Of a stretch of 64,000 bases of DNA, positions 7,499 through 57,548 are shown piece by piece. A model generated the notes under the pieces. It searched no databases. It was given only the letters and a program-made list of their open reading frames with translations, and was not told the DNA's origin. How positions within the stretch are numbered: position 1 is the first letter of the stretch; every line of letters starts with the position of its first letter. The stretch covers positions 407,939-471,938 of the forward strand of contig NW_011887299.1 in assembly GCF_000151315.2 (NCBI RefSeq), written 5' to 3'. Both the position numbers and the translations under genes were made by a program. Source of the DNA: Capsaspora owczarzaki ATCC 30864 (Eukaryota > Opisthokonta > Filasterea).

Positions 7499-10644
<3,146 letters not shown>

Positions 10645-20538: not shown

Positions 20539-23500
20539 TTTTGAAAATGTAAGAAAGGTATGTGTTTTTTTGAATGTCTGTCCATTGATGGTTCCATTTG
20601 GCCCAACAGCAGCAGCAGCAGGCAGCAGTGTTCTGTGGTGGGGGATGCTCATCAGCCAGAACCAGCAAGCCTGGCTTTATGTTCCTCCAATGTTGCTTGC
20701 GAAAAGACTTTGACCTCCTGCGTTTCGCTGCGCTGAAGGTCGGCATTAGATCTGGAAGCTGGACCTGGAAGCTTTGAATGAGCCCGCCTTTTTTTTTTNN
20801 NNNNNNNNNNNNNNNNNNNNNNNNNNNNNNNNNNNNNNNNNNNNNNNNNNNNNNNNNNNNNNNNNNNNNNNNNNNNNNNNNNNNNNNNNNNNNNNNNNTT
20901 TTCCATTCAAAGGAGCTGGAACTGGACTGGACTTGCCCCCTCCCCCCAACTGCTGCGGACTTGACTTGCGGCACAGAGTGTTGGAGGGATGACACGATTG
21001 GAACAACATTCAAGACTCGGTGCGGCGGCAATGCGAGAGAGAGAGAGAGAGAGAGCGAGATAGAAGAAGAAGAAGCCACCACAGTTCAGTGCCTTCCAAT
21101 GCGACCCTCACTCACTCACTCACACAATGCATCACTCACTCAATGTACCACTCAAATTGATGCTTCATGCTGCCTTGTTTGACTCTTCTTTGGCGGTGGT
21201 TGGTTGCCAGCGCCCGTCGATATCGAGCACATTCGCCAGGACAAGGAGTACGTCAAGAGCTACGACTGCTACGGCTGCATGGGTCTGATCACGCTATGCA
21301 ATGGTACGTCTCAAATTGATAGGACAAGTGGAAAAGATGGAGAAAAAACGACAACCTCGTTGTTTGGTCCGACAACACTAACTGCTCTCTCAACCTCGCT
21401 CTTCTCCCTCACAGACATCTTCCTCGTCCTCATCACCGAGTGCATGTCGGTGGGCAAGGTGCTGGATGCAGAAATCTTTCGCATTCGCAACGTCGAGTTT
21501 GTCCCCGTGGCGCGCGCGCAGTCCAAAAACCCCAGCGGGCAGTACGTCAACCCGACCGTGGCAGAGCTCGCCGTCATTAGCGAGTTGCTGCAAGAGCAGA
21601 TTGTTGAGACGCGCAAGCTCGTCACCGGCGGAAGCTTTTACTTTGCCTTTGGCTACGAGCTGTCCCTGTCGGCACAGCGCCAGAGCGCAGGCGACATGCC
21701 CGACGATCGCTTTGTGTGGAACCGTCACCTCCAACAACCCTTTGAACAGAACGGCATTGAAACCTATCCATGGTGCCTGTCCGTCACGCGCGGCTTTGTC
21801 GAATTCCGAACCGTGTATGCGGGTGCCGAGCAGATTCGCGTCGCCGTCATCTCGCGCCTGAGCTGCGAGCGTGCTGGCAAGCGCTTCCTCACCCGCGGCG
21901 TCGACGACGATGGCAACGTGGCCAACTTTGCCGAGACGGAGCAACTGCTCATCCGTGGCGACAAGATTCTCTCGCACATCCAGATCCGCGGCTCCGTGCC
22001 CGTCTTTTGGGAGCAGCCCGGCGTTCAGGTCGGCTCGCACAAGGTCCGCCTGTCGCGCGGCTTTGAGGCCACCGCGCCCGCGTTCTCCCGACACATTGAA
22101 CGGCAGCTCGACATTTACCAACGCATGTGGCTTGTCAACTTGCTCGGATCCAAAGAGGGCGAGAAGCTGCTCACCGACACGTACGAAAGCCACGTCCGCG
22201 CGCTCGAGTCTCATGACGGCTCCACTTCGCGTTGCCCGCTGATCTCGTTCGACTTCCACGCCATTTGCTACGACGGCAACGTTGCACGGCTCGGTCCGCT
22301 GCTCGAGACCATCCGCAGCGGTATCGAGGGCTATGGCTTTTTCGAGGCCAGCTTTGCCCAGCGCGGACCGGGCATTGTCTTTAACAATGTCGTGTCCACC
22401 CAGAGTGGTGTCGTTCGCACCAACTGCCTTGACTGTCTCGATCGCACGAACGTGCTGCAGGCCACCATTGCCATGCGCGTCCTCCAGCTCCAGCTCTCCC
22501 GCGTTGCACTCGACTCGTTGTGGTCGCGCTTTGACGATGCTGGTCGTGGATTGTGGATTAAGAATGGCGACGCCATTTCGCACTGCTATGCAGGCACCGG
22601 CGCGCTCAAGTCCGACATTGCCAAGACGGGCAAGCGCACGGCCATGGGCAAGATGCGCGATCTGCAAAAGTCCGTCTCCCGCGCAGTGCAAAACAACTTT
22701 TTGGACGGCTCCCAACAAGATGCCATCGACCTATTCCTGGGCAACCGCACGGATCGACTCTTGGCAGACGCCGGACACGGCACCGACCCGACCCAGCGCA
22801 AGCTGGTTGAAATGATGCGAGGCCGCGAGCACGAGTTTACGACGTACCAACGTGGTCGTGTTTTCTTGGGAACGTGGAATGTCAACGGCGGCAAACGTGC
22901 TGGCGAAGAGGCGCTCCACTCGTGGCTCATTGTTCCGCCCGGCGAGATGCCACCAGACGTCTACGCCGTCGGTTTCCAGGAAATTGTCGATCTCACAGCT
23001 GGCAACATTATGAATGCGGACGACTCGCACCGCACCGCGTGGGAAAAGGCCATCAAGGACACGATCAACTCGTCCGTCTTCCCGAACGGCCAGCCAGCTT
23101 CGTACGCGCTGGTCGTCTCGCAGCAGCTGGTCGGTGTGTGTCTTTGCATTTTTGTTCGCTCCGACTCGATCAGCCACGTACGCGACGTCGTCATCGGCAA
23201 GCACAAGACGGGCTTTGGCGGCTACGCCGGCAACAAGGGCGCGGTTGCCATTCGCTTCCGCATGTACTCGACCTCCATTTGCTTTGTGTGCGCCCACCTT
23301 GCTGCAGGCCAGTCGAACGTGACTGAGCGCAATTCGGATTATGCCGACATCATGTCGCGCATGTCGTTCGGCAAGGGCCGTGTCATCAACAACCACGACA
23401 TTGTCTTTTGGATTGGCGACTTCAACTATCGCATCGACCTGCCAAAAGAAGAGGTGGAAGGATGCGTCAAGAATGGCGATTTGGCCACCCTCTACGAGGC

Positions 23501-24764
23501 CGACCAGCTGCGCATTCAGCGCGAGAATGGCGCTGTCTTTGCGGGCTTTGTCGAGGCCCCCATCATCTTCGTTCCGACCTACAAGTACGATCTCTACAGC
23601 GACGTTTTCGACACGAGCGAGAAGGCCCGTGCTCCGGCGTGGTGCGATCGCGTCCTTTGGCGAGGCGAGAACGTCGACGTGCTCACCTACAACCGCGCAG
23701 AGCTGAAGAGCTCCGACCACCGTCCTGTCTATGCCACGTTCGATCTTACGCTCAAGCAGTTCAACGAGCAGGCCAAGAAGCGCTTGCGCACAGAGTTGCT
23801 CAAGACGATCGGTGTGACGGACGTGATTCTTGCAGTCTGGCCCATCGACCCTTCGTTGGGCGAGGAGGACGTTGCTGCCCTGTTTGCCCCGTACGGTAAC
23901 ATTATTGCCGCGCAAGTAACAGACTCTGTGGCGTATGTCTCGTTCAGCGATCCTGACGCTGCCCAGCGTGCGTTGGCGGTCGATCGTCAAACCATTGCTG
24001 GACGAGAAGTCCGTGTGGCGTTCAAGTCGTCGCATGTCGCCAGCAAGCACCGCCCCGCCAAATCTGACGCCGTCGTGGGCTCGTCCTCATCGCGAAATTC
24101 GCTCACCTCGACCATGTCGAGAGAATCGGCCCTGCTGGCCTTTGACGATGACATGGACGATGCCTCCCATGATTACCTTCAGATTACCGATCTTAACAAG
24201 GAAGCCGACAGTCCTCAGCCTGGCGATGAGCCTGGTCTTGCAACGCAAGGAGCACACTCGGACTTGGCCAGCTTCTCGCAGAGCTCTGCGCAAGCGCGCC
24301 CTTCCAGCGGCTCGGCTCGCCCCACGCCCGTCGTGCCTGCCCGCCCGGCCTCTCAAGCCTCTGGAGCCGCTCCGCCTGCGCGCCCCGCTCCTCCAAAGCG
24401 TCCTCCGGCTCCCACTGCCGCTTCCTCGACGAGTGCTGCACCTGCCGCTGCTCATGCTGCTGCTGCTGCTGCTGCTGCTGCTCCGCCAAAGCGCCCTCAG
24501 CCAGCCATGCCTCCTCGGCCACAATCAGTAGCGTCGACCGCTGCTGCTCCGCAGTCCTACCAGGCGCCCGCACCTGCTGCTGCTGCTTCCTTGATTGACT
24601 GGGACTCTGAAGTTGTGGCTCCCCACGTCCCGGCCGCTGAGCCTGCGGTGCCCGCTTTGTCAAACAGCTTTGCTGCCATGCAACTGCCCCAGTCCCAAGC
24701 CCAACCCCAAGGCTGGGCTTCCCTCGGGCTTGACAACTTTGCGCCAAATGCCAATCAATCGTAA
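20154..24764 (+). CDS. Synaptojanin-type inositol polyphosphate phosphatase
   Basis: Phosphoinositide phosphatase that strips PI(4,5)P2 during clathrin-vesicle uncoating. Exon 1 starts at 20154 and encodes MVLLKGFRVLVKS...HTCIV, matching the synaptojanin N-terminus (KGFRIYHK...SLIVE). A following exon of about 20-25 residues is not seen and may lie in or near the gap at 20799-20898. Then come 21211-21303 and 21415-24764. The Sac1 domain has the CX5R site in NCLDCLDRTN. The 5-phosphatase domain starts at GTWNVNGG (22872) and has WIGDFNYR and PAWCDRVLW. An RRM-like DUF1866 segment lies at 23820-24030. A Pro-rich tail (PPARPAPPKRPPAP) could bind SH3 domains. The 21304-21414 intron is 111 bases with no stop, so retention would insert 37 residues. 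Confidence 0.92.
20256..20465 (+). repeat. Perfect 105-bp tandem duplication
   Basis: Copy 1 is 20256-20360 and copy 2 is 20361-20465; read base by base they are identical. The unit length is a multiple of three. It lies in the first intron of synaptojanin, as modelled here, just after exon 1. Confidence 0.93.
20799..20898. other. Assembly gap of 100 N
   Basis: Exactly 100 undetermined bases flanked by T runs, within the 5' intron region of synaptojanin. The missing second coding exon may be here. Confidence 0.97.
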
Positions 24765-30259: not shown

Positions 30260-32977
30260 TCACATCAGCATCTGGCCAATATCGCGAACAGACCCATCCT
30301 GACGCTGCGAGACAAAGAAAGCCGAAAGCTCGGTGAAGCGCGGGCGTTGTGCTGGCTCTGCGTCCCAGCACCTCGTCATGGTTGAGAACACGTCGGCTGG
30401 GCACGTCGCCGGTTGCTCAAGCCGCCGCCCGCTCTCCAAGAACACGAGAAGGTCGGGCCCCCGCTTGGCGCCATAGGGCACCTGGCCATAGGAGAAGACC
30501 TCCCAGGCCACGACGCCGAACGACCACACATCGGACTGGCTGGAGAACTTGCGGAAGAGGATGGACTCGATCGCCATCCACTTGATTGGCAGTTGGCCCT
30601 TGGTTTCGACCCTGTAGTAGTTCTTCTCGTCACCGAGCTCGCGCGACAAACCAAAGTCCGAGATCTTGACGGAAAGGCCCGCGCCAACAAGACAGTTGCG
30701 GGCCGCCAGGTCACGGTGCACAAATCGAATGCTTTCGAGGTAGGCCATGCCGTCGGCGATCTGCGCCAGGACGTGGAAAGACTCGGCGAGGGTCCAAGGC
30801 ATGCCAGTTTCGTTCGACTTGACGAGGAGACCGCGCAGATCGCCGTACGGGATGAACTCGAGCACAAGCATGTTGGGCTCGGCCTCAAGGAGCGCAGCGA
30901 CGGCGCGCACCACGCACGAATTGTCGAACTGGCTCATCATTCGCGCCTCGGCGACAAAGTCGCGGCGAGACTTGCCATCGGCACCCTCTTTGAGCACCTT
31001 CACAGCGACTTGCAGTCCGGGGTGCTTGGGATTGACGAGCTGAGCCGCGGCAGGTGGGACGGACGTGTGAGCCAGCAGGCCGGCGCGAACCACGCCGAAC
31101 GCACCCTTGCCGAGCTCGGCGCCCAAGACCAAGGCATTCCGAATCGAGCGGCTGTGTGGGGAGCTGGTGTCATAGATGCGCTCGGCGGCGATCGACACAT
31201 TTGAGACCTCTTCAATGGGGCTGTCTGCCACAGATGGGCGTGGGCAAGCAACCCGCGCGTACATTTCGCTGTCATCGGTCGCGGAGAGCGTCGATGGCTT
31301 GTCCTGCATCGACACGGCACTGCGGGTCGCGAGTTCGACGAAGCGGTCGCCTTCCTTGCCCGCGCGCCGACGACGCCGAAAAAGCACGACAGCCACCACG
31401 ACGACGATCACGGCCAGCACCCCGCCGATTGCTGCGCCGATTGCAGCACCCGGGGAACTGCCATTGTCGCGCGGTGCGTTGGCCAGCCGAGACGACTCTG
31501 CAACGGCGATGGATACTGACTTTGCCGACGAGGCCGACTGGACTGAAGCATAGACGGCCTCCGAAGCAGCAGATGCAGCAGACGCAGTAGACGCGGCCTG
31601 TGAAGCAGCCGTTGCAGCAGACGCAGCAGAGGCGACTGATGCGACGGTTGCTGGGTGTGGCGTACACGTGCCGCCAGCCCCGACGATTTCTCCCGCGCCG
31701 CAAAAGCCAAGACGCAAGACTTCGAATACTGTCGCGTTTGTCCGAAGCAAGTAGATGCTCCGCGTCGCCATGTCAAAGGCCGTCCCGCGACCCTGCAGTG
31801 GTGGGGATGGGACGGCGGCGTCAAGCAAAGTCGTGAAGAGGAGCGCGCCCGAGGACTTGTTGAAGGCGAGCGCTTGCAAACCCACGTTCGCAAACGTGCC
31901 GAACGCCAAGAACCAGACCGGGTGATCAGCCGCGGTTAACGTTGCGTCCTGCACGTTGGGTACCTCAGTCTCCCAGTCAAGTGCGCCAGTCTCGCAGTCG
32001 AGACGCCCGAGCCAAGCGACGCCTTGCTTCGCTGCCGACAGGTAGATTTTGCAACGCGAGGTTTCAGTGTCGTTCACGGTGAAGATGCTCTGCACATCCG
32101 ACAAGCTCGTCAGAGCCGGCAGCTGCATCCGCCAGCGCCACGCCCGGGTCTGCAGCTGGAGGTCGTACTTGACGAGGTACGGGGTAAGCTGATCGCCAGT
32201 GTCTCCAAATCCGGTCGAGCGCGCCTGACCGGCAATGAAGACACTGTTGCCAAAGAAGACAATGGCGTTGCAGTGCGATGAGTGACCATTCGCGGGGCTG
32301 GACCAGTCCTGTCCAGTTTCCATGACTCGCGACATCAAACTCATACTCGCGTCGTATCGCGCGACAAAGTAGTAGAAATCAGGATCCCACGACGCTGTTG
32401 CGCCGTCGCCACATGCAAAGTACGTTCCATCGGTGTGTCGGGTGCCTCCACCAAAGCCTTCGTAGCCTTGTACGGCGTACATGGTGGTAGATACATAGCC
32501 GGTGGAAGACAGGGTCGCGCCGTTGAATCTGTCCAGGTGGGAAGCCACGGGTCAGTTGTAGAGCATGACAGCAACAGCAGAAAACATCACACTCCCATAC
32601 CGCTGAAGACAGCCTTTGGGTTCGTCGTAGCCCACCGTGTCAGTTGCGCCACATTGCGCCAGAGTAGCGTCAGCGGGCATTGAAGTTTGCCCAATCCCGC
32701 CTCCGACAATGACTTCGCCGTTGACAGCAGAGACACGAGCACCTCCCTTGACCATCGTCGCGACCATATTCTGGGAAGTTAGATTGTGATCCAGCAACCA
32801 GCACGCGGCCCATTCGCGCACGATCACGGAACTCGTCGTCGGGTCAAAGGCAAGCGCGTACGGCATAGTCGACGTGCTGACGGTGCGTCGTCCCACGATG
32901 GCGGGCATGAGCGCCAAACATGGGCTTGCTGCTGAGAGCGCGACGGCGAGCAAAACTAGGAGAGCAGCCGGTGTCAT
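30260..32977 (-). CDS. Receptor tyrosine kinase with propeller-like ectodomain
   Basis: Two exons, 32977-32601 and 32528-30260, give 881 residues. The signal peptide is MTPAALLVLLAVALSAA with cleavage after about residue 22; in-frame ATGs lie upstream, but this start gives the best signal. The ectodomain has repeated blade-like strings (PYLVKYDLQLQTRAWRW, WLGRLDCETGALDWE, LQALAFNKSSGALLF) resembling a PQQ-type beta-propeller, then an Ala/Ser stalk. One transmembrane helix (VLAVIVVVVAVVLF) is followed by RRRRR. The kinase, about residues 590-870, has GKGAFGVV, VAVKVLK, HRDLAARN, DFGLSR, paired YY in the activation loop and KWMAIES, all diagnostic of tyrosine kinases, and looks active. The ligand is unknown. 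Confidence 0.93.
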
Positions 32978-34060: not shown

Positions 34061-37000
34061 TTAACGCTGTGCTGTGGATGTTGCCAAGTGACGATTTCCA
34101 AGTGTCATGAGATCCTGCTTGAGCCTTTCGACTTCTCGGATGAGACGCTTGTTTTCACTGCGCAGCATGTTGTCCGTCTTGGGGGCGGGTTGAACTGTGG
34201 TCGTGCCGACTTCCAAGTCGGATTCGTTGTTGCTGTGATGACTGGTGCTGTTGTTGTGACCCGTGCTGCGATGCCTGTCAATCATCTCGACTTGCTTGTC
34301 CATTGTCTGCTGCTTCGGGGCCGAGTGAGTGTGCGTGTACGACTCGCGAGTTTCGGCAATGCCGCCATTCCGAACAAGGGACACCTTGGGCACAAAGATG
34401 AGCAAAACGACAGCCGACACGGTGAAAATGACATAGATGGACTCGAGGACATAGGCAATGTCACGGTCCTTGATGGCGGTTTGCAGGATGATTTGGAGCA
34501 CGACTGCCACAAACACAAAGTTGTAAACGGCGACCACAATGTACTTGGACTCGTTGAATGCCGTTGGCGTGTGTCGAACCTTGATTGCGAGGTACAGACC
34601 CCAGATCAGGAACATCAGCTCGACAATCAGGATGGCCGAGTCAAACCAGTTGGATGAGCACCTGGGGACGAGCTGCTGCGTGACGAAAACGCCTTGATTG
34701 GTTTGGTCGGACGTGATATCCACTCGAACTTCCGAGATGGGTCGCGAAATGCCAGTCCAGATCGCCAGGTAGAGTGCAAACATGAGGACGATGCGGAACA
34801 TGTAATGGAAGAGCACCGTGTCCTTCATGCGGATGCGCTTGATTGCATCGTTGTTGAAAATACGGTCAATGCTGCAACATGAGGTCGAAGTCAGAGAAGT
34901 CGAAAAAAGGGGGAGGGGCAAAAAGCAAAAGCACGCAACGTGAGGAACAGGAAAAGTCCGCGACAAAGAAAGAAAACAACCAACCTAGAAGAAGAAAAAA
35001 AAGGCCAATGAAGTTGAACCAAAACAAAACATACCGATACGTCTTCAAGAAGAGAGCCCCAAAGACAAAGCAGAAGCCGAGATGGCGAACCCAAGGCATG
35101 GCAGCGCAAAGCGCGTCGGTCGGAGTTGGCGCCGCGAGGAAAATCCAGACATACGAAAGCAACGCGCCGAACAGAATCAGAGCGAGGAATGTCGGTGACG
35201 ATGCGACAATGATGCGAGACGACCAGTTGCGCATCAGGAACAGCAAAAAGCCAAATGCAATCAAAATGAAGATCGCGGCGAGCACGACAAAGAAGTAGCG
35301 AGCACCATCCGAATCGGCATATGCAGCTAAAATAATAAATCATCGACGCAAACAAACAAACGGAGACCAAAGCAGCAGAGTGAGCGTTGATGAAAAATGA
35401 AAAAACACACACACCACCACCACCACCAAGGACATCAACGCGCCGCACAACCGTACTTTGGGTATTCACGGTCGGACAGGCAAAGTTGATTTCAACTTGC
35501 ACGGCAGGAGCGTACGGAGTTGCAGTTGCGCGGGAAGCATTGTCGCTCACGGTAAAGGCAAACTGTGTCGAGACGCAGCCTTGGTCTGCCTGAGAATAAA
35601 ACACGGTCAGGGAGCGAGCAGACTGCGGGCTGGCAACAAGCACGGTGCCGGCGGTGATGGTCGTGGTGGACGTAGAGTTGACGTTAAAGGTCGTGTCGGA
35701 CAAGTTGTGTGTGACAAACAGGGTTCCGACGGAAGGCACCGTGTTGAACTTGAAGTGCAAAACGTCGGACGAGTCCGGGTCGTACACGGGAAGCGGGATG
35801 GCAAGCACACTTCCAACCGTCGCATCAAAGTTGGTGGGTGTGAGCACAGGAGCATCGCTCGTGCCAACGACGTTGAGCGTCAGCACCTGATCAGCAGTCT
35901 GGCGGTCAAGGGACGGCAGACAGTCCGAAGCGGCAAAGGACAGCTGATCGACGCCATCAAAGTCGGCATCAGGAACAAAGATCAGGCGACCAAGCGGATC
36001 GTTGACGACACCCGCGCGAACGAGCGGCACGCCAGTCATGGAGAGGGCGTCGATTTCATTCCATCCAGGAATCAGGTGCGTTGCAATCTCTACGCGGTAG
36101 ACATCAGCCGTCCATGCGGGCTGACAAGCTTGCGGCTGGAAGACGACATACGAGCCCGCCATGTAATTGCCGAGGTTGTCATAGAGCTCGGTGCGCGCAG
36201 GCGCCTCCCACACTGGAATCCAGGTATTGGTGGGCTCGTGGCGCGCGGAAATCTACCAATTCCAAAACAAATGTCGGGTCGATTGTGAGACATTTTGTTG
36301 TTGTTGTTGTTGTTTTCAGCAGGTCAAATTCAGTACACACCTTTGTCGTAGCACCAGGCCAATAGTTTTCGTAAACAGCAAAGCTGTGGGGTACGAGTGA
36401 CTCGCCCATGCGAACTTCGACATACTCGTTGCCTTGGTTGGCGGGACAGGTAAAGTTGAATGGGTTGGACACAGTGTTGAAGGAGTTGACCAAGCAAGGT
36501 CTGTTTTTCACCGCGTTGTAGTCTCCAGTGGTGGAAGGACACCAAGCCGTAGCAGTATCACCGTAGCCACCGTTCGGAACCTATTGTGCATTGGCGTGGA
36601 GGAGCAACAAGATGAACACAACAGGCGTTCAACCGACAATGGACAAAAACAAAAGGGAAAGATCAAATGCTTACGCCAGGATTGTAGGCTGAAGGACCAC
36701 CGACCAGCGCCAGAACACCATAGGTGGAGCCGAGATACTGTGTGCTGAACTTGAGGCTGGTATCGCCGGTGACACCAAGCACAGTCACGCCAGGCTGGTG
36801 CGCCACCTGCTCAACCCACGTTTTCGCGGGCTCTTGCTCTGAAACCCAGTATTTGTACGAGTCGAGAAGCGGTCCACGGGAGTAGGCGCCGCCACCATTG
36901 TCAACGTACTGGTACAGCTTGCCATTTGTCGGCAGGGAGGTGACGACAATGCCAACAATGAGGCTCTCAGAGTCGACATCCGTCGACGACAAGCGAATGA

Positions 37001-40000
37001 TTTGCTCCTACCAGCCAAGGAAAAATAAAGTAACGTGAGCAAAAAAAACAAAACGCAAGACACGGCTCCAAGAATCAACGATCGAATTAGCCAGTGCGCC
37101 TACAGTGTCTTCCTCGATGAATTCGGTGCCGAAATTGGGGAAGGACGGAACGAGAGCGCCAGGATTGTCCGCCCACAGAGGTGCAGCCGACAGCGAGCCT
37201 GAAAGGAAGAGGAGAGCGACCGAGCAAGAGGGAAAGCAACCACAAAGTGAGGCTGTGAAAGCCGACAAACAAAAGCCTGTGGTGGGCTCGACGTACCGTT
37301 GCCGAAAAAAGCGGTAGACGAGCAGCCAAAGTATGAGTTGCCAAAGCACAAAGCAGTCATGCCGATACCAGCGTCCAGAGGCCATGCGGCAACGAGATTG
37401 GGTCGACGCGTGCTAGAAACCTTCTCTAGCAGGAAGAAATCGGCTGTCATGCGCGACGAAGTGTTCCAAAGGGCGATCTGTCGACGTCAAAGGAAGGCAC
37501 GCATACAAAGAATCAAAAATTGGGTCAGACAAACGCAACGGCAGAAAACAGGAAAAAAACAAACAGAAGAGTGCAAAAAGCCTTCTCACTTCGTCAAGGC
37601 TGCCGACAAAATACTGGCCAATGCTGATGCCACTGGTTGCCACAGAAGACAGAGTTGAGCCCAATACGGCGGTGCCGACCAGATTACCGTTGAGATAGAG
37701 ATTGGCGGACGAGCCAGTGAGCGACAGTGCCACATGCGACCAAACGTTCAGCGGGACGGTGCCAACCGTCTGCACTGCCACCACCGATCCAAGATGCCGC
37801 AGTGCCAAAAGCGAGCCGCTCACAATCTCGAACGAGAAGCTAGAGGAGCTGGTGCTGGCCAGAGCAGGGCCCATCAAAATGTACGGCTGGCCAGTGGGGG
37901 CGGTGGTCATTGAAATCCACATTTCCATGGTAAAGCCGCCAGTCCAGGACACCACAGAGTTCATGCCAATGTCCCGGACGGTCATGTACTCGACGCCCGT
38001 ATAAGTCACCATGAACGGGTTTGGAACGGCCTTCGGGAGATCGGCCACGACTGAAATGCTGATGCGAACAGTAGCGGAAGAGTTGGACCAAGCACCATTC
38101 ATGTCAGCCACGTCGTAAGTGAAGAAGTCAAAGTCGGTCGAGTAGCTGTTGAGCGGAGCGGAGTAGAGGACACCGCCGGCCTCAGTGGGAAGGACGAACG
38201 GCACGGACGTGATGCGCGACCCTCGCTGCAGATTGTTGTTGAGCGTGTAGAGGAAGCCGTGTGCGGGAAGCTGGGTAATGCGCGACGTGCTGGTAAGATC
38301 GCCATCAACGTCGGTGCCTGTGAGTCCGACACGAAGCACAGACAAGTCTTCGGCACCCGAAATGGTCTGGGTGATGGGCGTGGGAGCATGGTTGACGGAC
38401 ACGTTCACATAGCCGGTCGCCGTGTTGTCGGCGTCCGTGACAGTGTACGAGAAGGCGCAGCCCGAGAAGCCGGCGGAGGACTTGGCATAAATGGTGGACG
38501 AAGCAACAGCGGCGCCAGAGGTGGCAATCAGGTTGGTGCAAGCTGCATCGCGATAGAGCAGGAGGTTGGGGCAGGCGCCTCCGTAGCTGCCAACGGCCAG
38601 AGTGAAGGAGCCGAGGGTGGAGTGTGCTCCGAGGGTGATTGGCTTGGCAATGGTCGGGGAGACTCGGACGCGAACTGGGCCCGACCCGACCACTGGAGCG
38701 GTGGAATCTGCCCACAGGGGAGTGCGCGAGGTGGCATCGTCGCCGTCGCAACCGCTGGCAGCACTCGTAGAGAATCCACCGAGTTTGACGGGATGGTAGG
38801 GAGCGCTGTATCCTCCAGGGATGGCAACATCGTTGTAGGCAAGAGGCCCGCTGCCTTCGTCGAACGACCAGGCACCCCAAAGGTCGGGGGTGGCCATTGC
38901 GTCCAGGTGCAAGTTCTTGTTATCGGCGAGCTGAGCAGGGGTACGCGCCACCTTCCACACGCGGAGCTCGTCAATCATGCCAACGAAAGCCTGCGTCGAG
39001 TCAAATCCGCCATAGTACGCGTCCTGGTCTTGACCCAGGACAAACGCAACAGTGCTGGGAAGCGGAATACTCGCGCGCGCCGCCGACACGTTGTTGTACA
39101 GGACGTTGCCGTCGTAGGTCAAGATTGTGCGACCGTCCGCGACGTTGAATGAGAGGCCTAAGAGAGTTGGGAACAAAGGAAGAAGCAAAGAAAACGCGAA
39201 AATGTTCAAGTGGGTGAGTTTCATAGAACTGTGACAGTGTTTTTTGGTGTTTTTTTGTTCCTCCTTTACCCCAGTGGTGCCAGTTGCCATTGTAATCTGC
39301 CGCAGGGCCAGTGATCGGGCCGACGGCGTCCGGGATGGAGAGGAATGGATTAATGTACAGCCGAAAGTCGGTCAGGAAGCGCGACCAAGTGACGACATTA
39401 TCGTCCTGTGACGATGCGACTGAGATGACGCACTGTTGCTGGCCTTCGACCTTGAAGTCGTTGCGGTAACGCACCCTGCCGGATTGAAGGGGAAAAAGAG
39501 AGAAAAAGAGAAAAAAAAAAAAAAAAGAGGGGAAAAAAACCAAAATGGAAACCAAAGCCAAAATTGAGCCAAAATTTGAGTTTTCGATCTAAAACCACAA
39601 GAATGAAAAGGGGGAAAATAGCAACAACAGAAAAAAGCTGTCAAACAGGACAATTTTGGTGTGACTTGAACGAGATGAAGGAACAGGGATGATGAGATGA
39701 AGGGAAAAAGAGATGAAGGGAAAAAGAGATATGTGTGAGGTGATGACTTTTCGGATCTGGACGCGAACGCCCACATCTGTCAGGACATGTGGCCCCTTTT
39801 TTGGATCCAGCAATTTGGAGGCCACACAAGTTCATCCAATCAAATGACATTTTGGACAATTTCGAATCCTGCCATTCGCCACACGGCCCGAAGCCCGAAG
39901 CCCGATGAATGAATGAATGAATGGTGTGGTGTGGTGTGGGGTTTTTGTTCAAATTAGACGCACAGACACAGACACGGCTCTCTCGCACTTTGTGTCCTCG

Positions 40001-40649
40001 CTTTCTCTCAAAATCGCTGGTCTCGCTTTTCCTTTTCCTTTTTTCCCACTGATTTTTGTCGATGCATTTCATTTCCGAGACCGAGCAACCGTTTCGTTTC
40101 GAAAAGCGAGAATCGAGAACAAAACAAAAAAACAAAAACAAAAAGCGAATAATTCGAATTGATTAGCAACCAATTTTTTTTTCTCGGTTTTTTTTTAAGG
40201 GGTTTTTTTTTTTGTGATTTTTCAACTTTTTGGTTCTTTCTGTCTTTTGGTTTTTTTGGATGCTTTGAAAAAACCACCACAACAAAGACAGCCAACAAAA
40301 ACAACCACAGACACTGATCGTGCAGATGAGACCGACCCCTCTGCTCACACATTTCGCTGCGGAATGCTCTACATGCGGTGGGTGGCAGGACAATTAACCA
40401 CTCAATACGAATTGGTGTGGCATTGCGAACAAAATTGAGATCCACGCCCTGTGACACACTCTCGCTCTCCATACCACCAACCGCGTGCGTATGCGTGTGT
40501 GCGTGTGTATGTGTGCGTGTGGTCGATGGTTGCATTGTCCAACGACCCCCCTCTTCTGCGCGCCTGTGAGGACGGGATGGAGTTGTGGGGGAGGGTGAAT
40601 TGTTTTTTTGATTTTTTTTGATTTTTTTGATTTTGTTGTGACGTTTTGT

Positions 40650-40682
<33 letters not shown>

Positions 40683-40938
40683 GTCCTTGTTGTTCGTACC
40701 AGAATTCAATGGTGACGGCGGTCGTCGGGAAGTTGTCCACAAACTTGTCGACGCCGATCGAGTTGTAGTTGAGCGAGCTCGAGTGGTAGAGGCAGCTGCC
40801 TGCACCGCCGGCCGTGGTGGCGGCCTGCACAGTCGAGGATGCGGAGGCGAGAACAAGTAGCACGCCAACGATGATGACACGCAGCTGCAGTGGCGCGGTG
40901 CCATGACGCCCGAGTTGATGCTGCATCCCAGCAGTCAT
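34061..40938 (-). CDS. GABA-B-type (class C) 7TM receptor with laminin-G/cadherin-like ectodomain
   Basis: Ten exons, all phase-consistent, give 1596 residues: 40938-40700, 39475-39270, 39157-37590, 37477-37297, 37198-37104, 37007-36675, 36580-36341, 36252-35427, 35326-35035 and 34871-34061. Signal peptide (VIIVGVLLVLASAS). The ectodomain has two laminin-G/ConA-like domains (AVTIEFWV...DELRVWKVART; FTMEMWISM...SLDEIALWNTS). A cadherin-like segment lies between them (GTDVDGDLTS). Next come an FBXL4-like jelly-roll (YENYWPGATTKISA) and a second cadherin-like module (VYDPDSSDVLHF). Seven helices follow; FNESKYIVVAVYN and LLIFVPKV match GABA-B receptor TM6-TM7. The tail has a coiled coil, LRSENKRLIREVERLKQDL. 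No Venus-flytrap domain is present. Confidence 0.92.
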
Positions 40939-41880
40939 GATTGCTGGTGGGTTGCAAAAAAAAAAGGAACAGAGGAATGAGAGACTGAGAGAGAGTCAGT
41001 GAATCAAGATCCCAACCAAAAAAAAAAAAGGAAAAAGGAAGAATGAGGTGAGGTTTGTGGACACGATCCCTTTTTGTTTTGTTCAAATACTAATAGGCAA
41101 TTGCTATTATTGCTATGACGTTGGGCTTGAGCGTTGTTGTTTTTTCGTTTTGCACAGGAAAAATCCAATGGCTGTTGGCACCGCTCCTTGGCAACCCGGT
41201 TCACCTCGCTCTCGCTCTCTCTCGCTCTCTCTCTCCAGTCCGCGGACTGGCACCCAACAGAGCAGCGAGAGTGGGACCCCCCGTTGCACAGAGGGACAAG
41301 TGCTGGCGTATGAGGATGGTTGTTTGTTGTGGTGCCGAAAAAAAAAAGGGTTTGGTCAATTTGGTTGTTTTTCAAAAACACGCCATTGTCGCAAACAGAC
41401 CCAGCCCCTTTTCGGAAGCCGCTAATAGCCACTCCGGTTCGCTCCGGGCCTATCGCACCGAACCCAGTTTCAGGGCGTGGTGAATGTGCGAAAGGAGTGC
41501 ATCGTGTCCAATCCATGGAAAGCCGGACACGTACACAACAAAAAACAAAAGCCACCCCTCCTCCCTCCATAGATCGACCTGCCGAACGAACGAGGCCTCG
41601 TCATTGCATCAAAAGCACCAAAGGTATTGTCAATATCATGACCGTTGGGGCGTCGTCCATGGAAGCCCATGCAGCAGAATAAATTCCATTGCAAACCGCG
41701 CTTTCCCCGCTTTCCTGTTGTCTCTCTCCATTCACCCCTTCCCCTGTAAAATCAACCCCATTCCAAAATCAACAAACATTGTTCCTGTTCTTGAGTGTTT
41801 GAAACACAAAGTGCTGTAGACACGCGGCGGACAGTCTCTTTGTTTTTTTTTTTTTTTTTGTTGCTGTTCGAGACTGGACC
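40939..41880. promoter_or_regulatory. Divergent intergenic region, 7TM receptor / RABL3
   Basis: About 940 bases between opposite start codons. CT-rich words at 41206-41236, and a T run ending just before RABL3 (41842-41859). No gene recognised. Confidence 0.45.
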
Positions 41881-42377
41881 ATGAGCGATCGGGTGCGCGT
41901 CTTGGTTCTGGGCGACTCTGGGGTCGGCAAGACCTCGCTTGTGAGCCTGATATGTCGCAACGAGGTCCTGCGATCGCCGTCGTGGACTGTCGGATGCTCC
42001 ATCGACGTCAAGCTGCACGAATGCAACGGACGGACGTTCTGCATTGAGTTTTGGGACGTTGGCGGGGCTGCCAAGTACGAGCGCACCCGGCAGCTGCTCT
42101 ACGACCCCGCCAACGACATTGCGGGCATTGTGCTCGTCTACGATCTCAGCAACAACAAGTCCTACACAAACCTGCGCCGGTGGCTCTCAGAGTTCCTCGC
42201 GGGTGCAAGCGCGGCTGTCCTGTCATCGCCGCAGCCCCACTCGTCGCAGTCAACCGCATCCGCGAGTCAGAGTCAGACGGCATCCTCGAGCTTTGGATTC
42301 TCGTTGTCCCCGTCCGGTGGGATTACGCGCGGGCTGCCCGACGATGATGGGCAGCCGAATTCGTCCTCGTCCTCGTC

Positions 42378-42408
<31 letters not shown>

Positions 42409-42896
42409 GGGTTCTCTGTCAAGAGCCTCGTGCGGTCCATGTCCGGACTCGATCTCGATGCCGAAAGACTCGCTGGAGAATTCAAAATCCCGATTAGCAT
42501 TGTCGGGACCAAGAGCGATCAGATCACTGGCGAACACGCAAAGCCCGCCAAATCATCCGGCACCTTCAATCCGTCCAGCGGAATGGCGGGGCGTAGCGCC
42601 AAGCGAAGATGCAGCTTGGCAGATGAGCTCGGTGCTGAGGCCGTGATTGAGGTGGTACGTGGTTTTTGGGAGGCATTGTTGCTGCAAAACAAAAAACGGG
42701 AAGCTGGTGGTTGTGTTCTCACGTCTCGTCTTGAACTCGATGCTTGCTGCAGAGCTGCCTCGAGCCATGTTTCACAACCGGATCGGCGAATGCTCAAATG
42801 TTCAAGGCCTTCTTTGATCGTATTGTGGCCCCACGCGCCGGATCCGTCGTACGAGACACTCGTCGCCGTTTCATTCCGGCTGCGTTGTCAGGGTAG
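41881..42896 (+). CDS. RABL3: RABL3-like small GTPase
   Basis: Exons 41881-42654 and 42753-42896 give 305 residues. P-loop [13 protein letters not shown], then [22 protein letters not shown] (G3) and GTKSDQ (G4) follow the RABL3 pattern; the WTVGCSxDV string is typical of that family. The C-terminus [16 protein letters not shown] matches the SSNAxxLSRFFDKVIEKR end of RABL3. There is no C-terminal prenylation cysteine, as in other RABL3 proteins. A Ser/Gln-rich insert of about 70 residues (encoded near 42205-42420, with a run of 16 Ser) separates the core strands and makes the protein longer than human RABL3 (236 residues). Confidence 0.92.
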
Positions 42897-43130
42897 GGCT
42901 TTTTTTTTCTTTTTTTGGCTCCACCAACAAGTCAGAGTGATTGTTCGACTGAATTTCCCGACCCTGCTTTGCCTTGCTTTGAAACCTCAACGACAGAATG
43001 GACGTGAAATCAAGATAGTTCCCGCTTGCGTTTTTGTATCGTTTCCATATTGTTTTTTGTTTCATTTTTTTATTTTCACTGAACATTTTTGCATCATTAA
43101 ATGGGTCTTCGCTACTCACACAGCTCCTCT

Positions 43131-44444
43131 TTAGCAAATCACGCACTGCTTGTCGTGGTGCTTGCCGTGTGCTTGAGTGGTCGTGGGAACGGCGGGCGGC
43201 GGAGGGACAAAGTCGTAGACAATCGCGCGTCGTCGAAGCTGCATGGCCGCGTTGACCACCAGCACTCCGTCCATCTCGATGGTGCCAGCGTCGTCGTGGA
43301 CGTGGCCCGATTGGAACACAAACGGCCGCACGCGCTCAAAGAGAGCCAGGCGCAGATTCTTGTCACCCCAGTGTGCAAATCGAGGGTGCTTCTTGTTGCA
43401 AACACTGCAGACGTTAAAGTTGGACTTGGCAGAATTGGTGTGGGCCAAATCTAGAATGTTGAATGCAGGCTGGTGCGTCACCACAATGTCCACTGGCTTG
43501 GGATTGTTCGCGCGCGATGGGATGCGGTCCCAAGCGGCTGCACGTTCTTGGGCATTCGCGCCGTAGCCCATGCCGACGCAGTGGTTCCATGCCGAGCCGT
43601 AAATGCGGATGCCTTCGATTTCGACGCTGCAGTCGTGGAGATAATGAGTGCCAGACTCCTGCAGTCGCTTCTGAATGTACTTGGTATCGTAGCGGTGGAA
43701 GCACGTCTCATGGTTGCCAGCGACAAAGACCTTGTGGCGGTGCGGCACTGCCGAGAAGAACTCGTTCAGCTCCTTCAATGCTTGATCCATGTTCTCGTAG
43801 GCGACATGATCGAAAAAGTCTCCCGCGTGAATCAGAATGTCGCCGTCTGGAATACTGCCGCCGTTAAAAAAATCAAAGTGCTCGCCGTGCGTGTCGGAGA
43901 TGCAAACAACGCGCAGCGGCGGTCGTGGTGGTTCGACGTCTGCATTGGAGTGATATTGCTTTCCAATTTCTGCTTCTGCGGGCGGCGGATTGGCGGCAGA
44001 TTCTGCTGCTGGTGGCGGCAGATTAGCGGCAGAAGCTGCACTCAGATACCCAACTAAGGGAATTCGACGACGCTTCTTCTTGCTTGGATCTGCAGCGTCA
44101 TCGTCGTCATCCTGATTGTCCGTCCAATCGTCATTCTGTGCCATATTTAGTTCCGTAATATCATCGTGAGTGAACGGGAAGCGCGAAGGTGAGACGTGCA
44201 GAAACTGAGGTCAGCTAAAATCGCCGACAACGGTGTGTGTCGTCATGTCAGGATCACTCACCAAGCGACGCTCCCGCAGCACGTCCCGCAGTGCAGCCCC
44301 CGACGTCACAGTGGCGCTGGTCAGAGGAAGGTTCTTTGGTGGCGCTGGCGGCGGCGGTGGCGGTGGTGGTGCTGAAGATGCTTGTGCTGCGGTCTCCATT
44401 GTGTCGTCACTGGTGACGTCTTTGGTTAAGGTTGCTTCACTCAT
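43131..44444 (-). CDS. Calcineurin-like metallophosphoesterase (MPPED type) with CaaX end
   Basis: Two exons, 44444-44262 and 44204-43131, are joined by a 57-base intron with a GTGAGT donor; total 418 residues. The N-terminal exon is Pro-rich (a run of eight Pro) and ends [10 protein letters not shown], continuing [11 protein letters not shown] across the junction. The phosphoesterase core has [28 protein letters not shown] and SGHVH, the five metal-ligand blocks. Overall it resembles MPPED1/2 (239FB) proteins. The last four residues are CVIC, a plausible prenylation box. Without splicing, exon 1 would give a 77-residue peptide stopping at 44211. The core alone, from an internal ATG at 44144, is 337 residues. 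Confidence 0.88.
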
Positions 44445-51520: not shown

Positions 51521-54500
51521 GGCCGTGTTTCAACATTGCCAGGAGGAGGAGGAGGAGGAGGAGGAGGACGGTGAAGGGGGAAGGGCGAGTTCTTGCGATT
51601 TTGTGCACAACAAGCGATGTTCACCAACAGGCGCGAAGTCTGCTGAGAAACGCTCTGAACAAACGCAAACGATGGAAGAGGAAACAAAAAAAAAAAAAAA
51701 AAAAAAAAAAAAAGCGACGGAGTTCGAATAGAATGTATCAACCAAAAAAAAAAAAAAAAAAAAAAAGAAGGGTCGCGAACACTTTGCTTGTTTTGTTGAT
51801 CATTCCCAACGCAATGGCATGGCGCAATGCAAATGCATGGTAGGGAGAGCAAAGTTGTAGTGGGAAAGAGGAACTGCGGAGACCCTTGCTTGCTGAGCGC
51901 AACAGATAGCTGCCGCTCTTTCTTTTCAAAAAAAAAAAAAAAAAAACCCCTCTGCGAAACGCAGTCCGAGAATTTTTTTTTTTTTTTTTTTTTTTGGCGT
52001 GACAATGTGTTTGACGACATCGAGTTGTCGGGGAATTTTTGCTCTGGAAGCAACTGTGAGTCGGGGAGTGTTGTGCGCGACATGCTCGTTGTGTGTGTGT
52101 GCGCGCGGAGCGATTTGGCGTTTTTTGCATGACGAATTGCCGCCTAAAAGCGATGCAAACCGAACATTTCAACATTGCGTTCACCATGCTCGATGCAATC
52201 GTGACGGTGCTGTTTGTGAAGAGAGCGCCGCGTTGGACTGTTGGATTGGATTGGGTTGACTGACTCGGCTCCTTGCTCACATGTTGCTCTCGCTTCTCTT
52301 GTTCTGAAACACGCTCGGCAGATGTCTCGTCGCCAGTCCGGCTCTTGTCGTTGCAGCTGAAGGAATCGCCGCTCTTCCACAGCTCGTCCAATGCCTTTTT
52401 GGAGCGGCTAGTCGAGACCATGAAGCCGCGCCTGTACAAAGCGAGCGACGTGATTATCAGCTTTGGCGACAGCGGGCGCGCCATGTTTTTCATCTACAAG
52501 GGCGTTGTGGAGATCATTTCTGCCGACAGAGAGACAGTGGCCGCGACCCTTGGCGAGGGCAAGTTTTTTGGTGAAATTGGCCTGCTGTTTGGCGTCCCGC
52601 GCACAGCTACCGTGCGCGCCTTGACGCCTTGCATTCTGTTTGCAATCACACACGACAAGGTCTCGGAGGTGTTTCAAGAATTTCCCGAGATGCGCGCCCA
52701 GATTGAAATGGAGGCGCAGAGTCGCTTCTCGATGGTGAGAGGTCGCGTCCAAGCGTCGCCGGTCTTGGCGCCCACAGCCGACAGCGCGGCCGCTGACAGC
52801 GCACCGCCCGCTATCGCCAGTACCGTGGCACCGGCATTCAGCACTACGACCGCTGCTGCGCTCATGCGAGCGGAAGGTGGTCACTCCAAACAAGCGTCGT
52901 TTGACGATCTCGAAGAGCTATTACGGGCCAATGAAGCTCTTGTTCGGGTAAGCTAGTGGTGATGAGTGGTTTTTTGTGTTGTTGTTTTGTCGGATTTGGT
53001 TTTTTTCATTTCGTTTGGTTTCTCTTTGTTTTTTTTTTTTTTTTTGTTTGTCGGAACGGGTTTTCTTGTTTTGTCTGTTTGTTTGGTTTTTGAACCCAAT
53101 CTTGACACCAACAGCAAATCCCAATGTTCGCACACTGCGACGCTGGTTTTGTTCGAATGGCAGCCGCGCGCGTCCGCCCTCGTACCTTCCCAGCAACCTC
53201 GATTATCTTCCACTACAACGAACCTGGCGATGAGATTTTCTTCCTTCTGAGCGGCTCGGTGTCCGTTTTTGGCCGCGACGACGAAGTGGAGTTTGAGATT
53301 TTGATGCCTGGCAGCTTCTTTGGCGAAGTAAGTCATCCTCACCTGGCCAAACTATTTCCTGCCACACTCAAGGGGGACTGAGCGCCTCTTTTTTGATTCT
53401 TGTTTTTTTTTTAAACAAAAATTCCTATTTCTTTGTTTCGACAGATTGCCGTCTTGTACAACACCACTCGCTTTACGACAGCCGTTGCGCGAGAGGACAT
53501 TGAAACGTTTTCCTTGAGCAAAGCGGACATGAACGATCTTGCTCCCCTGTATCCCGAGATGAAGGAGCGGATTGAAAAGATCTCCAACCGAAGGTACGGA
53601 CGTTTTGATATTTCATGTCTTTGTGCAAGAGTTGGGAGTCTCTCGTTGTTCCTCGCCCGTTTTGTTGCCAAGAATAGTAGCTCACAATCCGACTTCTCCC
53701 TCCCTCCTCTACCTCAAAACAGGTATCGCGACTGGCTGCGAGCAAAACAGCTCGAGACGGCTGCGTCTCCCTCTCGATCGCCCGATCGAAAGTCTCCGGT
53801 TCAAACTCCTGCCCCATCTCCAGTACCATCGCGCAAATTTGGTGCAAACTCGGACGCCACCACCGCCGTGGGTAACGGGTCGCCGCGGCAACCAACAACC
53901 GCGCAAACCTCAGCAACTGGAGTGGGCACGGTGCTCTTTTCCACTCCATTGCTCGGTGCGTCCGCTCCCATGACAGGCAGTCCGGGCAGCATGAGCGCCC
54001 CTGTGTCGCAGCGTGGCTCGCCCGGCTCGCGATCGCCATTGCTCTCTGGCGGTACGCCACCCAACAATAGCAGTACCGCCAATCTGGCCAACAGCGGGCT
54101 AGCTCCGCAACTCCAGCAGCAGCAGCAACAGCAGCAGCCATCTCACCAGCTGTCGCATCTCGTCCACCACAATGGCCTCCTGAACCAGCTGCCCAAGTTG
54201 CAAGTTGGCTCGTTTGGCTCGTCCAATGCTCGTGCGATTTCAGCTCCAGTCACCTCTACCAACAGCACGAACGGATCGCCCAACAACTCGCTGCAAAATC
54301 AAAACACCACCCTTGCGTTCGCGGTCAGCGGGCGGCGCAGCTTCTCTGAGAAGGACCGGCCCAGCTACCTGCAGTCGCAGCAGCAGCTCGCTCAGCAGGC
54401 CCGTCCCATTTTCTCGCCACCGGCTCAGCGTAGTACGTCGATTACCAACATTTCCGACATTTTGCTGCTTCCTGCCAGTGATCCGGCGGCCTCTCAACTC

Positions 54501-57500
54501 GGGGGTGGTATCTCCTCACCTCCAACTGCTGGTTCAGTGCTCAACCTCGCCAACGCCAACGGCCCTTCGCCTGGCTCGGGGCTGGCATCCAAACTTTCAT
54601 CATCGCTGGGCTTCAGCCAAGGGCTGGGTCTGGGCAGCATGGCCGCCTCTGTATCGATGCCCTCGCTTCGAGACATTACGGCGACGGAAGCTCGCGAAAT
54701 GTCCCCTGGAGGTGTTGTGTTCCCGCCCACCATTCTGACCATGGCCAATCGTCGGAGCTTCTCTGCAATGGCACAGCACCAATCCTTTGATGCCACGGCC
54801 GACGGCCAGCCAATGACCCACGCACAGCTGGAGCAGCTTTTGCTTCAGCAGGACGAGAACAACCAAGCAGAGCTGTCTCGACAGGCCACGTCGCATCTTG
54901 CCGCAGCGTCACTGTCCGCCATGCCCCGCTTTGGCAACAATCCTGACTTGCGCCCCCATCAAGTCATCGAGTCACCAGTACCTCATCACTCGTCGACCTC
55001 GGCGTTCCCATTCGCATCGGCGAGCAATAGTGCTCTAAACACATCTGCTGCTGCCGCCGCCGCTGCCGCCGCCATCGCCGCTGCTGCCGGTACGACTGCT
55101 GCTGGAGCTCCTGCCACCGTAGGACCCGCCGAGCCGGTCGATTTGTCGCAGTACCGCCCAGTTGCTGGCCCCTTTGCACCACCTCGCAAGGCCTTCTCCA
55201 TGGAGGACATGAGTCGCCGTCTCACTGCCATGGCAGCCGGTGGCTCGCCGTTGGCGACCTCGATGTCGGGAACACCGGGAAGCGCGACCCGCAGCCCGAC
55301 CGCCAGCTCAACGGGTTTGGACACGCTGCAGCTGGAGGCCATGGCTTCGCCTACCTCCAACTACCACCGTCGCACGCATCGTCGCACGCCATCTGCCGAC
55401 CTTGCCTCTCTCAAGGAGTCGGCAGACGAGAATTCCAACGAGCTGCGCAAACGTGCGTCCATGATGGGCCAGGCATCCCAATCGCCCAACCAGGAAGGGT
55501 CGCCGCGCAATTTGTCCCCCAGTTCTTCGTCCCATCCGTCTCGCCAAAACAGCCGCTCAACGTTGGCAAAGAGCTCCAGCGTTGACCTGCGCCAGACCGG
55601 GTCGCCGCAATCTCCTCAGCTCCTATCCCCGCATCTATCGCCTGCACTGGCCCCGCCGAGTGGAAATGTTGTCGTTTCAGAGTTTCATCTCGACAGCCAG
55701 CAGGGTGCCGCCGATCTTGCTGTCCCTGTGCCCGCTCGCGGCCTTCCGCACCAGTCGTCCAGCCTGAAAGAGTCCTCTCCAAAGCTGGCCGTGTTGCCTG
55801 CGCCGACGAGTCCTGTGGTGACCCCTACAATCACTGTGGAAAGCACGCCCGTCACTGACGAAGTGGTCGCACCATCTTCATCCGTTGATGAGGTCGCGTA
55901 TGATGCCAATGCCGCCGCCGCGGCAGCTGCAGCAGCAGCGGCAGCAGCTGCATCGGGCATGATGTCTGCTTCCCGACATCGAGGTGGGTTTGCCCCTTCC
56001 TTGCCGCCGCATCTGCTTGGCAAAATGTCCGAGCCTGAAACTGTGGACGAGGATGGCTCGGATGGGGCGACTTCCACTGCTGAAGTTACGAGCCAGGAAA
56101 ACAGCGATGAAGAAGACGAAGACGACGATGCCGACGACGACGACGATGATGATGATGACGGCCCTGCTGTCAATCCGTTCGCCAATTTCGGTGCCGGAGG
56201 CTGGGGCACCACCTCAACAGCCGCCGCCCCAGGCACATCTGCTCCAACAACGATGAGCAATCCGGCTGTTGATCGTCTGGTTGCCCAGTCGGTTGGTCGC
56301 CGCAGAGCAAGTGTCGCTGTTTGGCTCCCGACCGTCATGACGGATATTCCGCAAGACGAATCTCGATCGCGCACCTTGCCTGACGATGTGCGCAAGGCCT
56401 TCCTTGCCGAGCAAGAGCGCCGTGCCGCAGCAGACAGCGGACTGACCGTTTCCAACATTGTCGAGCTGCCCGTCACCGTCACCATGCGCATTTTCTCGTG
56501 GCTGGACTTTCCGGATCTTGTGCGCGTGAGCAGAGTGTGTCAAATGTGGCATCGCCTTGCCTTCGCGCCCGAAGTTGTGTCCACCATCGACCTGTCGTCC
56601 GTGCACAAGAAGGTCACCGACACCGTGCTTGACAATCTTACCGAGAAGCTCGGGGACTCTGTGCGGAAGCTATCGCTCCACAACTGTTGGCTGATTACGG
56701 ATAATGGCCTCAGGATTGTTGTAGAGCGATGCCCAAAGCTCGAGTATCTGTCCTTGTTCAGCTGCTGGGACATTACGACCGAAAGCTTGATTCTGCTTGG
56801 CTCGCACTGCCCGAACATTCAGTACTTGGATATTAGCAACTGCCGCAAAATCACGGACGATTCGCTGATTCAGCTGACCGCCAGCTGCTCCACCATTCGT
56901 TGGCTCGAGCTCTCGTACTGCAAGAACATTTCAGATGCGGCAATGGTGGAGGTGCTTGGCACGTGCTCCAACACCTTGCAGCACTTGAATTTGCAACGCT
57001 GCACGCGTCTGACCAAGGAGGCCTTTGCGCCGCTGCGTGTGACGCCAGCCCTGCGCTTGACCAAGCTGATTCTCTCCGACTTGTTTGCTCTCGACGACCA
57101 AACGGTGGCCGACATTGCTGCTGGGTGCCCGCAGCTTCAACACCTCGACATGTCGTTCTGCTTTGGCCTCACAGAAGCCGCGCTGTCCCATCTCGCTCGT
57201 CACTGCAAGGCGCTGGTGCATCTCGATCTTGCCAGCTGCGCGGGCGCCGTCACCGACGCTTCCGTGGATGCGCTGGTCGCCTCCCCCTCCGAGTTGCGCG
57301 TCACTCTGCAGTGGCTGAATCTGCGCAACTGCTCGTCCATCACCGACGACGCGCTTCGCTGCCTCAACGAGAACTGCGCCGTCTTGCAGCATGTCAACCT
57401 GTCCAACTGCAAGCATGTCACTGCCGGCTGTGCCGAGCGCAGCACCAACATTGCCACGGTCGTACTAAATGCCAGCGTTCGTCCTCCAGCAGTGGCGCTT

Positions 57501-57548
57501 GCTAGCAGCAACGCTGCAGGTGCTGCAGTCCCAATGCTGCACGGATGA
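50611..57548 (+). CDS. Two cyclic-nucleotide-binding domains fused to F-box and leucine-rich repeats
   Basis: Exons 50611-51469, 52322-52947, 53115-53327, 53445-53593 and 53723-57548 join in phase to 1890 residues. Residues 1-286 are Ser/Ala-rich. The first cNBD (about 300-425) has the phosphate-binding cassette FFGEIGLLFGVPRTATV. The second (about 500-610) has FFGEIAVLYNTTRFTTAV. Both keep the Gly-Glu and Arg that contact the cyclic phosphate. About 900 low-complexity residues follow, with poly-Gln, poly-Ala and a long Asp/Glu run. An F-box (VSNIVELPVTVTMRIFSWLD, about 1526) and roughly ten FBXL2/AMN1-type LRRs (LEYLSLFSCWDITTESL and similar) complete it. Inferred role: an SCF ubiquitin-ligase adaptor gated by cAMP or cGMP. 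Confidence 0.92.

Follow-up and report, generated by a model that had tools for sequence, protein, structure and literature searches.

A Capsaspora owczarzaki gene predicted to join a pentraxin/laminin-G and cadherin-like ectodomain to a class C seven-helix domain

The window analyzed here is the whole of a 64,000-nucleotide stretch from Capsaspora owczarzaki ATCC 30864 (contig NW_011887299.1, positions 407,939 to 471,938). Its minus strand carries, from position 40938 to 34061, a predicted gene of ten exons whose single joined frame encodes 1,586 amino acids and ends in a single terminal stop. The predicted protein combines an ectodomain of pentraxin/laminin-G (LamG) and cadherin-like modules with a class C seven-transmembrane (7TM) domain, and we hold it reasonably probable, though far from assured, that this one gene encodes a surface receptor sensing a displayed ligand through its pentraxin/LamG tip. 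Its exons are as follows.

Exon 1, 40700..40938, minus strand: residues 1-80; a hydrophobic, signal-peptide-like stretch (19-37) and the start of the first LamG/pentraxin domain
Exon 2, 39270..39475, minus strand: residues 80-149; middle of pentraxin/LamG domain 1
Exon 3, 37590..39157, minus strand: residues 149-671; end of the pentraxin, cadherin-like/Big_9 modules and most of LamG domain 2
Exon 4, 37297..37477, minus strand: residues 672-732; end of LamG domain 2
Exon 5, 37104..37198, minus strand: residues 732-763; linker
Exon 6, 36675..37007, minus strand: residues 764-874; cadherin-like by eye, with no Pfam match from residue 771
Exon 7, 36341..36580, minus strand: residues 875-954; part of a cysteine-containing block
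Exon 8, 35457..36252, minus strand: residues 955-1220; end of the cysteine-containing block and two cadherin-like modules
Exon 9, 35035..35326, minus strand: residues 1220-1317; start of the class C 7TM domain, approximately helices 1-3
Exon 10, 34061..34871, minus strand: residues 1317-1586; approximately helices 4-7, cytoplasmic tail, C-terminal leucine zipper and stop

All nine introns are of the GT-AG type, and the ten phase-consistent exons of an earlier note on this DNA are confirmed, with exact coordinates and a coding signal in every one. To gauge coding potential, we trained a codon model on eight further class C loci of this genome (L001-L008), with one reading frame taken per locus. 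In all 10 exons the predicted frame scored highest of the three, with values of 0.32 to 0.59 bits per codon; because 7TM cores are among the training sequences, the result for exons 9 and 10 is partly dependent on them. The nine introns, each taken in its best frame, scored -0.25 to 0.19 bits per codon. When every exon was set against 2,000 equal-length random stretches of the window, the share of stretches scoring at least as high as the exon ranged from 0.002 (exon 3) to 0.068 (exon 5), the other weak exons being exon 4 (0.061) and exon 9 (0.052). This control is strict, because the random stretches contain other genes; the short exons 4, 5 and 9 are individually not strong as coding evidence. 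Junctions 1 and 2 fall within a Laminin_G_3 match (residues 68-225) and junction 9 within a 7tm_3 match (1226-1479), and the domain matches that cross these junctions support the three joins. Intron 1 (39476-40699) is homopolymer-rich and, with 1,224 bases, exceeds the other eight (88-163) about 7.5- to 14-fold in length.

The class C (Glutamate family) assignment of the 7TM domain, made in the earlier note, is confirmed. A Pfam scan of the complete 1,586-residue protein (reporting threshold E<=1, with the N-terminus also scanned alone) placed the 7tm_3 match at E 3.4e-49, covering model positions 5-251 of 251, and the best 60 of 69 matches to solved structures, which were the ones examined, are all class C receptors or fusions thereof. 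Among the matches listed, GABA-B2 scored 80.5 bits, GPR158 75.1, GPR179 65.8 and GABA-B1 at most 61.2, followed by the more distant GPR156 (37.6) and mGlu7 (36.5, the best mGlu receptor). The position of mGlu7 far below GABA-B2 and GPR158 speaks against an mGlu-type reading, but the scores of GABA-B2 and GPR158 do not separate GABA-B from mGlyR. The domain had been called GABA-B-like, and GABA-B2 is indeed its best solved relative; the label is nevertheless too definite, given the score of GPR158 and the preference of the paralogue L005 for GPR158 (77 bits vs 49 for GABA-B2). A perfect leucine zipper of the form L-x6-L-x6-L-x6-L starts at residue 1553, and GABA-B receptors likewise carry a leucine-zipper tail.

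Of the two laminin-G/ConA-like domains described earlier, both were recovered as Laminin_G_3 stretches (68-225 and 551-677), and the first is more specifically best described as a pentraxin. With the N-terminus scanned alone, Pentaxin matched residues 87-225 at E 1e-13 (51.9 bits vs a curated cut-off of 25). Neuronal pentraxin-1 is the best of its solved relatives (E 1e-9), which number 14 sequences in all and include neuronal pentraxin-2, C-reactive proteins (CRP) and a SAP-like pentraxin, among others. A conserved GQDQD...FDSTQAFVG stretch (from residue 190, in exon 3) aligns with solved pentraxins, and the likewise conserved DDN of this domain aligns with the SAP-like pentraxin. The cadherin-like modules also stand: Big_9 matched in two stretches (best 404-512) and an Ig_SibA match is present, while Cadherin_5 at 1021-1071 lies just below its curated cut-off (25.1 vs 26.5); a weak Cadherin_3 match at 1108-1193 and a Cadherin_4 match are also below theirs. 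The Big_9 and Cadherin_4 models are described as bacterial. When relatives of exon 3 were sought in prokaryotic genomes, 53 stretches fitted a pattern and none was confirmed, a result that neither shows nor excludes a bacterial source for the ectodomain.

An FBXL4-like jelly-roll, which had been proposed for the cysteine-containing block of exons 7 and 8, found no counterpart: no Pfam model matched residues 771-1031 up to E 10, and residues 851-1029 returned no credible solved structure, the best PDB match (E 0.058, a pigment protein) being judged a chance one and the presence of an FBXL4 chain in the library being unconfirmed. Residues 19-37, the sole strongly hydrophobic stretch ahead of the 7TM domain, suit a predicted signal peptide, and nine N-glycosylation sequons lie before residue 1226. 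No Venus-flytrap domain was detected, as the earlier note had claimed, since ANF_receptor and Peripla_BP gave no match at E<=1 in the 1,586 residues, nor did NCD3G, Cache or EGF; the same Pfam library detects Peripla_BP_5 in the paralogue L008.

The layout, with adhesive modules ahead of the helices, resembles that of adhesion G-protein-coupled receptors (GPCRs) on a different 7TM class, as had been noted, and it raises the question of whether the receptor might also work like them, mechanical pull on the ectodomain releasing a tethered agonist. The long ectodomain of LamG/pentraxin and cadherin-like modules would suit such a mechanism, as would the pentaxin of the human adhesion receptors GPR126 and GPR144 (PMC3251606). 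We nevertheless regard it as distinctly unlikely, because GPS, GAIN and 7tm_2 are without a Pfam match at E<=1, an H-[LIVM]-[ST] cleavage-type motif occurs nowhere in the protein, and the 7TM domain is of class C; a variant in which force acts without cleavage is possible. Membership in the adhesion GPCRs themselves was rejected on the same Pfam and motif results.

The genome (27.46 Mb, 29 contigs) holds at least 34 7tm_3 matches, all above cut-off, counted exon by exon and to be read as a lower bound; 21 of the 34 run from model position 10 or earlier to position 251. Four matches spaced about 4 kb apart form a tandem array on contig C1 (G000:C1:3121974-3135111), and two others lie about 8 kb apart on contig C19 (G000:C19:14633-23200). 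A Pfam scan of paralogue ectodomains covered five of the eight loci (L001, L003, L005, L007 and L008), with the reading frames of L005 and L007, which may include unspliced introns, used unaltered. L001 (G000:C3:484103-484846) carries a right-handed Beta_helix ectodomain (E 5.3e-15) ahead of its 7TM domain in one open frame, L005 an OpuAC ectodomain (E 1.2e-5) and L008 a Peripla_BP_5 ectodomain (E 1.9e-19); L007 shows Big_9 and Ephrin_rec_like, both below cut-off. To our knowledge a beta-helix ectodomain on a class C receptor is unusual, perhaps stranger than the architecture of the window gene. Judged by eye, L003 and L004 also resemble beta-helix proteins, but in L003 Pfam reported 7tm_3 alone.

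With beta-helix, OpuAC and Peripla_BP domains standing before the helices of these paralogues, an N-terminal ectodomain is normal for the family in this genome, and the differences among L001, L005 and L008 indicate that ectodomain swapping extends beyond the window gene. The nearest 7TM domains among the eight are those of L002 (39% identity), L005 (38%) and L006 (36%). Given the solute-binding ectodomain, of OpuAC type, on so near a relative as L005, the 7TM domain looks like a plug-in unit with a swapped sensor. The 7TM domain of L007 is closer to GABA-B2 (68 bits) than to GPR158 (36 bits), and that of L005 leans to mGlyR. A nine-row 7TM tree grouped the window gene with L001, L002, L005 and L006 (97/96) against L003, L004, L007 and L008; it contains no animal receptor, has flagged long branches and was not used for subfamily claims.

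As an alternative, the protein might be a non-binding partner subunit that supplies the G-protein-coupling 7TM domain to a second class C receptor in the cell, in the way that GABA-B2, its best solved 7TM relative among the best 60 of 69 matches, serves GABA-B1. The perfect zipper would serve for pairing, and similar tails are seen by eye in L002, L005 and L006, the nearest 7TM relatives (36-39% identity). We take this arrangement to be possible but unlikely: the zipper is equally able to form homodimers, and GPR158, which is nearly as close, is homodimeric. A more detailed form, just as tentative, has a partner with, for example, a Peripla_BP or OpuAC ectodomain, the LamG stalk merely anchoring or placing the pair.

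That ectodomain and 7TM domain belong to one gene is very likely, judging from the DNA around intron 8. Followed upstream from exon 9, its frame reaches a stop at 35342 without passing any ATG, and the first methionine in the exon-9 reading is residue 31, where helix 1 ends; the exon-8 frame, for its part, stays open past exon 9 until a stop at 34893, inside intron 9. Two adjacent genes, one for a secreted adhesin and one for a short class C receptor, could have been wrongly joined here, and the critical exon 8/9 junction does lie between domains, so that this join is not proved by homology. Such a split would, however, need an unseen start exon for the receptor and an unseen end for the ectodomain, which makes the fusion likely and the two-gene model extremely improbable. 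Intron 8 (130 bases, GT-AG) is free of AATAAA and ATTAAA; the absence of these signals is weak evidence, as neither occurs in the 261 bases that follow the terminal stop codon either. Paralogues such as L001, L005 and L008 keep ectodomain and 7TM domain within one open frame. The single gene of the earlier note thus stands, a split at exon 8/9 being hard to build.

Taken as one gene, the protein would be delivered to the cell surface by its signal peptide and would present, from the outside inward, a pentraxin/LamG tip, cadherin-like modules interrupted by LamG 2, a GABA-B/mGlyR-type 7TM domain and the zipper. The tip may bind a ligand displayed on a surface, such as a glycan, a phospholipid headgroup or a matrix protein, most likely in a calcium-dependent manner, and the cadherin-like modules would space it from the membrane. 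In animal class C receptors, dimer rearrangement leads to G-protein activation. Here the receptors could form dimers held by the 7TM domain and the zipper; multivalent binding would reorient them, and the reoriented 7TM dimer would activate heterotrimeric G proteins. What is sensed would then be a surface, prey or a neighbouring cell rather than a free amino acid. The earlier note had inferred that the receptor senses matrix or cell contact; for a pentraxin, phospholipid or glycan binding would be no less natural.

Several points weigh against this proposal. The GQDQD...FDSTQAFVG stretch is presumably the pentraxin calcium site, and its calcium-binding residues are putative. LamG and pentraxin folds serve many purposes, plain anchoring included. 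AlphaFold predictions of single-exon pieces (exons 3 and 8, the longest two of the ectodomain, without an alignment) were uninformative, with predicted local distance difference test (pLDDT) values of 31.2 and 32.1, and the position of the exon 8/9 junction between domains, described above, counts here as well.

A narrower version of tip sensing can be framed around lipids. The pentraxin CRP binds phosphocholine in the presence of calcium, and multivalency strengthens the binding; a pentraxin joined directly to a G-protein-coupled 7TM domain is a natural candidate for a lipid sensor. At the position that seems to correspond to Phe66 of CRP in the alignment to solved pentraxins, the window protein has a serine, a point against phosphocholine-type recognition. 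Capsaspora aggregation starts within seconds of meeting zwitterionic-lipid vesicles, through a receptor that is not known; of the headgroups, phosphatidylcholine is the most active, an outward-facing positive charge is required, and free phosphocholine is inactive (PMC13171883). It is very improbable that the window receptor is the lipid sensor that starts this aggregation, its pentraxin tip reading phosphocholine on vesicles. One fold would speak for that role, and a slim chance is all that we attach to it on this ground. Lysophosphatidylcholine and lipids with only saturated tails are inactive, and the response requires clathrin-mediated endocytosis (PMC13171883); the inactivity of both, although they carry the headgroup, means that more than headgroup recognition is needed. 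Were the role nevertheless true, a lectin fold of immune type would let a class C receptor recognise lipid membranes and set off multicellular behaviour. The window gene is a candidate for the open question of which receptor starts Capsaspora aggregation.

Other genes of the window were noted in passing. Just downstream of the receptor gene and on the same strand lies a receptor-tyrosine-kinase-like gene (30260-32551, minus strand, extending upstream to about 33000 by eye), with a PK_Tyr_Ser-Thr match at E 9.6e-84 and an apparent single transmembrane stretch; the scanned reading frame contains no further Pfam domain at E<=1e-4. The divergent neighbour (41803-43134, plus strand) encodes a Ras-family GTPase domain (E 3e-17) with a long run of serines behind it. 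Farther away are a synaptojanin-like gene (21183-24764, plus strand; open frame of 1,193 amino acids with Syja_N, an inositol-phosphatase-type Exo_endo_phos2 and RRM_1) and a gene for an F-box and leucine-rich-repeat protein (53415-57548, plus strand; open frame of 1,377 amino acids whose N-terminal part is a long low-complexity region). Inside a gene that resembles a DEAD-box helicase by eye, a run of about 100 bases within 9169-9901 is unread or masked.

The combination of a pentaxin with a class C receptor has been described before. For CASP_EFW47134.1, a Glutamate-family receptor of Capsaspora, Krishnan et al. 2012 (PMC3251606) reported a Pentaxin domain (PF00354); they also pointed to the pentaxin domains of human GPR126 and GPR144 and gave N-termini of 57-1,667 residues. 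EFW47134.1 is probably the window gene, and in our literature search Krishnan et al. 2012 alone mentions EFW47134. The general point is also in print: Garcia De Las Bayonas and King 2025 (eLife, PMC12716839) describe non-metazoan Glutamate receptors with diverse extracellular domains absent from metazoan ones, and place filasterean and ichthyosporean members basal to the mGlu, mGlyR or GABA-B groups, or elsewhere. The novelty that the earlier note implied is accordingly low, and the gain lies in detail and a testable lead rather than in a new kind of receptor. No description of the full pentraxin-cadherin-LamG-cadherin order was found in the literature searched; supplementary files, which lay outside that search, may list it. 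The anatomy given here is more detailed than in the available portions of the printed accounts (PMC3251606, PMC12716839); it sets out, at the level of coordinates, a receptor that would unite adhesion and G-protein signalling, two great functions of the animal cell surface.

Compared with known systems, the window protein resembles EFW47134.1 in being a class C receptor, with an N-terminal Pentaxin, of a unicellular relative of animals; for EFW47134.1, Pentaxin is the sole domain named, and LamG 2 and the cadherin-like modules go unmentioned, in the portion of PMC3251606 available. The corresponding portion of the 2025 survey (PMC12716839) lists class C architectures of animals, and the present one is not among them. 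GABA-B2 offers the best solved 7TM relative (80.5 bits, among the best 60 of 69 matches), but GABA-B receptors have a Venus-flytrap ectodomain, and none was detected in the window protein at E<=1. The mGlyR receptors GPR158 and GPR179 are nearly as close in the 7TM domain (75.1 and 65.8 bits) and also have an ectodomain other than a Venus-flytrap, which is of the Cache-EGF type (PMC12716839) in contrast to the pentraxin/LamG/cadherin-like one of the window protein. The mGlu, CaSR and T1R receptors carry ANF_receptor and NCD3G, neither of which was found here at E<=1. The adhesion GPCRs GPR126 and GPR144 resemble it in having adhesive modules, pentaxin among them, before the helices (PMC3251606), and differ in 7TM class and in the 7tm_2, GPS and GAIN domains that went undetected here. 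Within Capsaspora itself, L007 (G000:C6:826831-827541) combines a Big_9 cadherin-like module (under cut-off) with a class C 7TM domain in one open frame and has, by eye only, a LamG tail ahead of the helices; it differs in a membrane-adjacent stretch of the Ephrin_rec_like type (under cut-off) and in a 7TM domain just 28% identical to that of the window gene.

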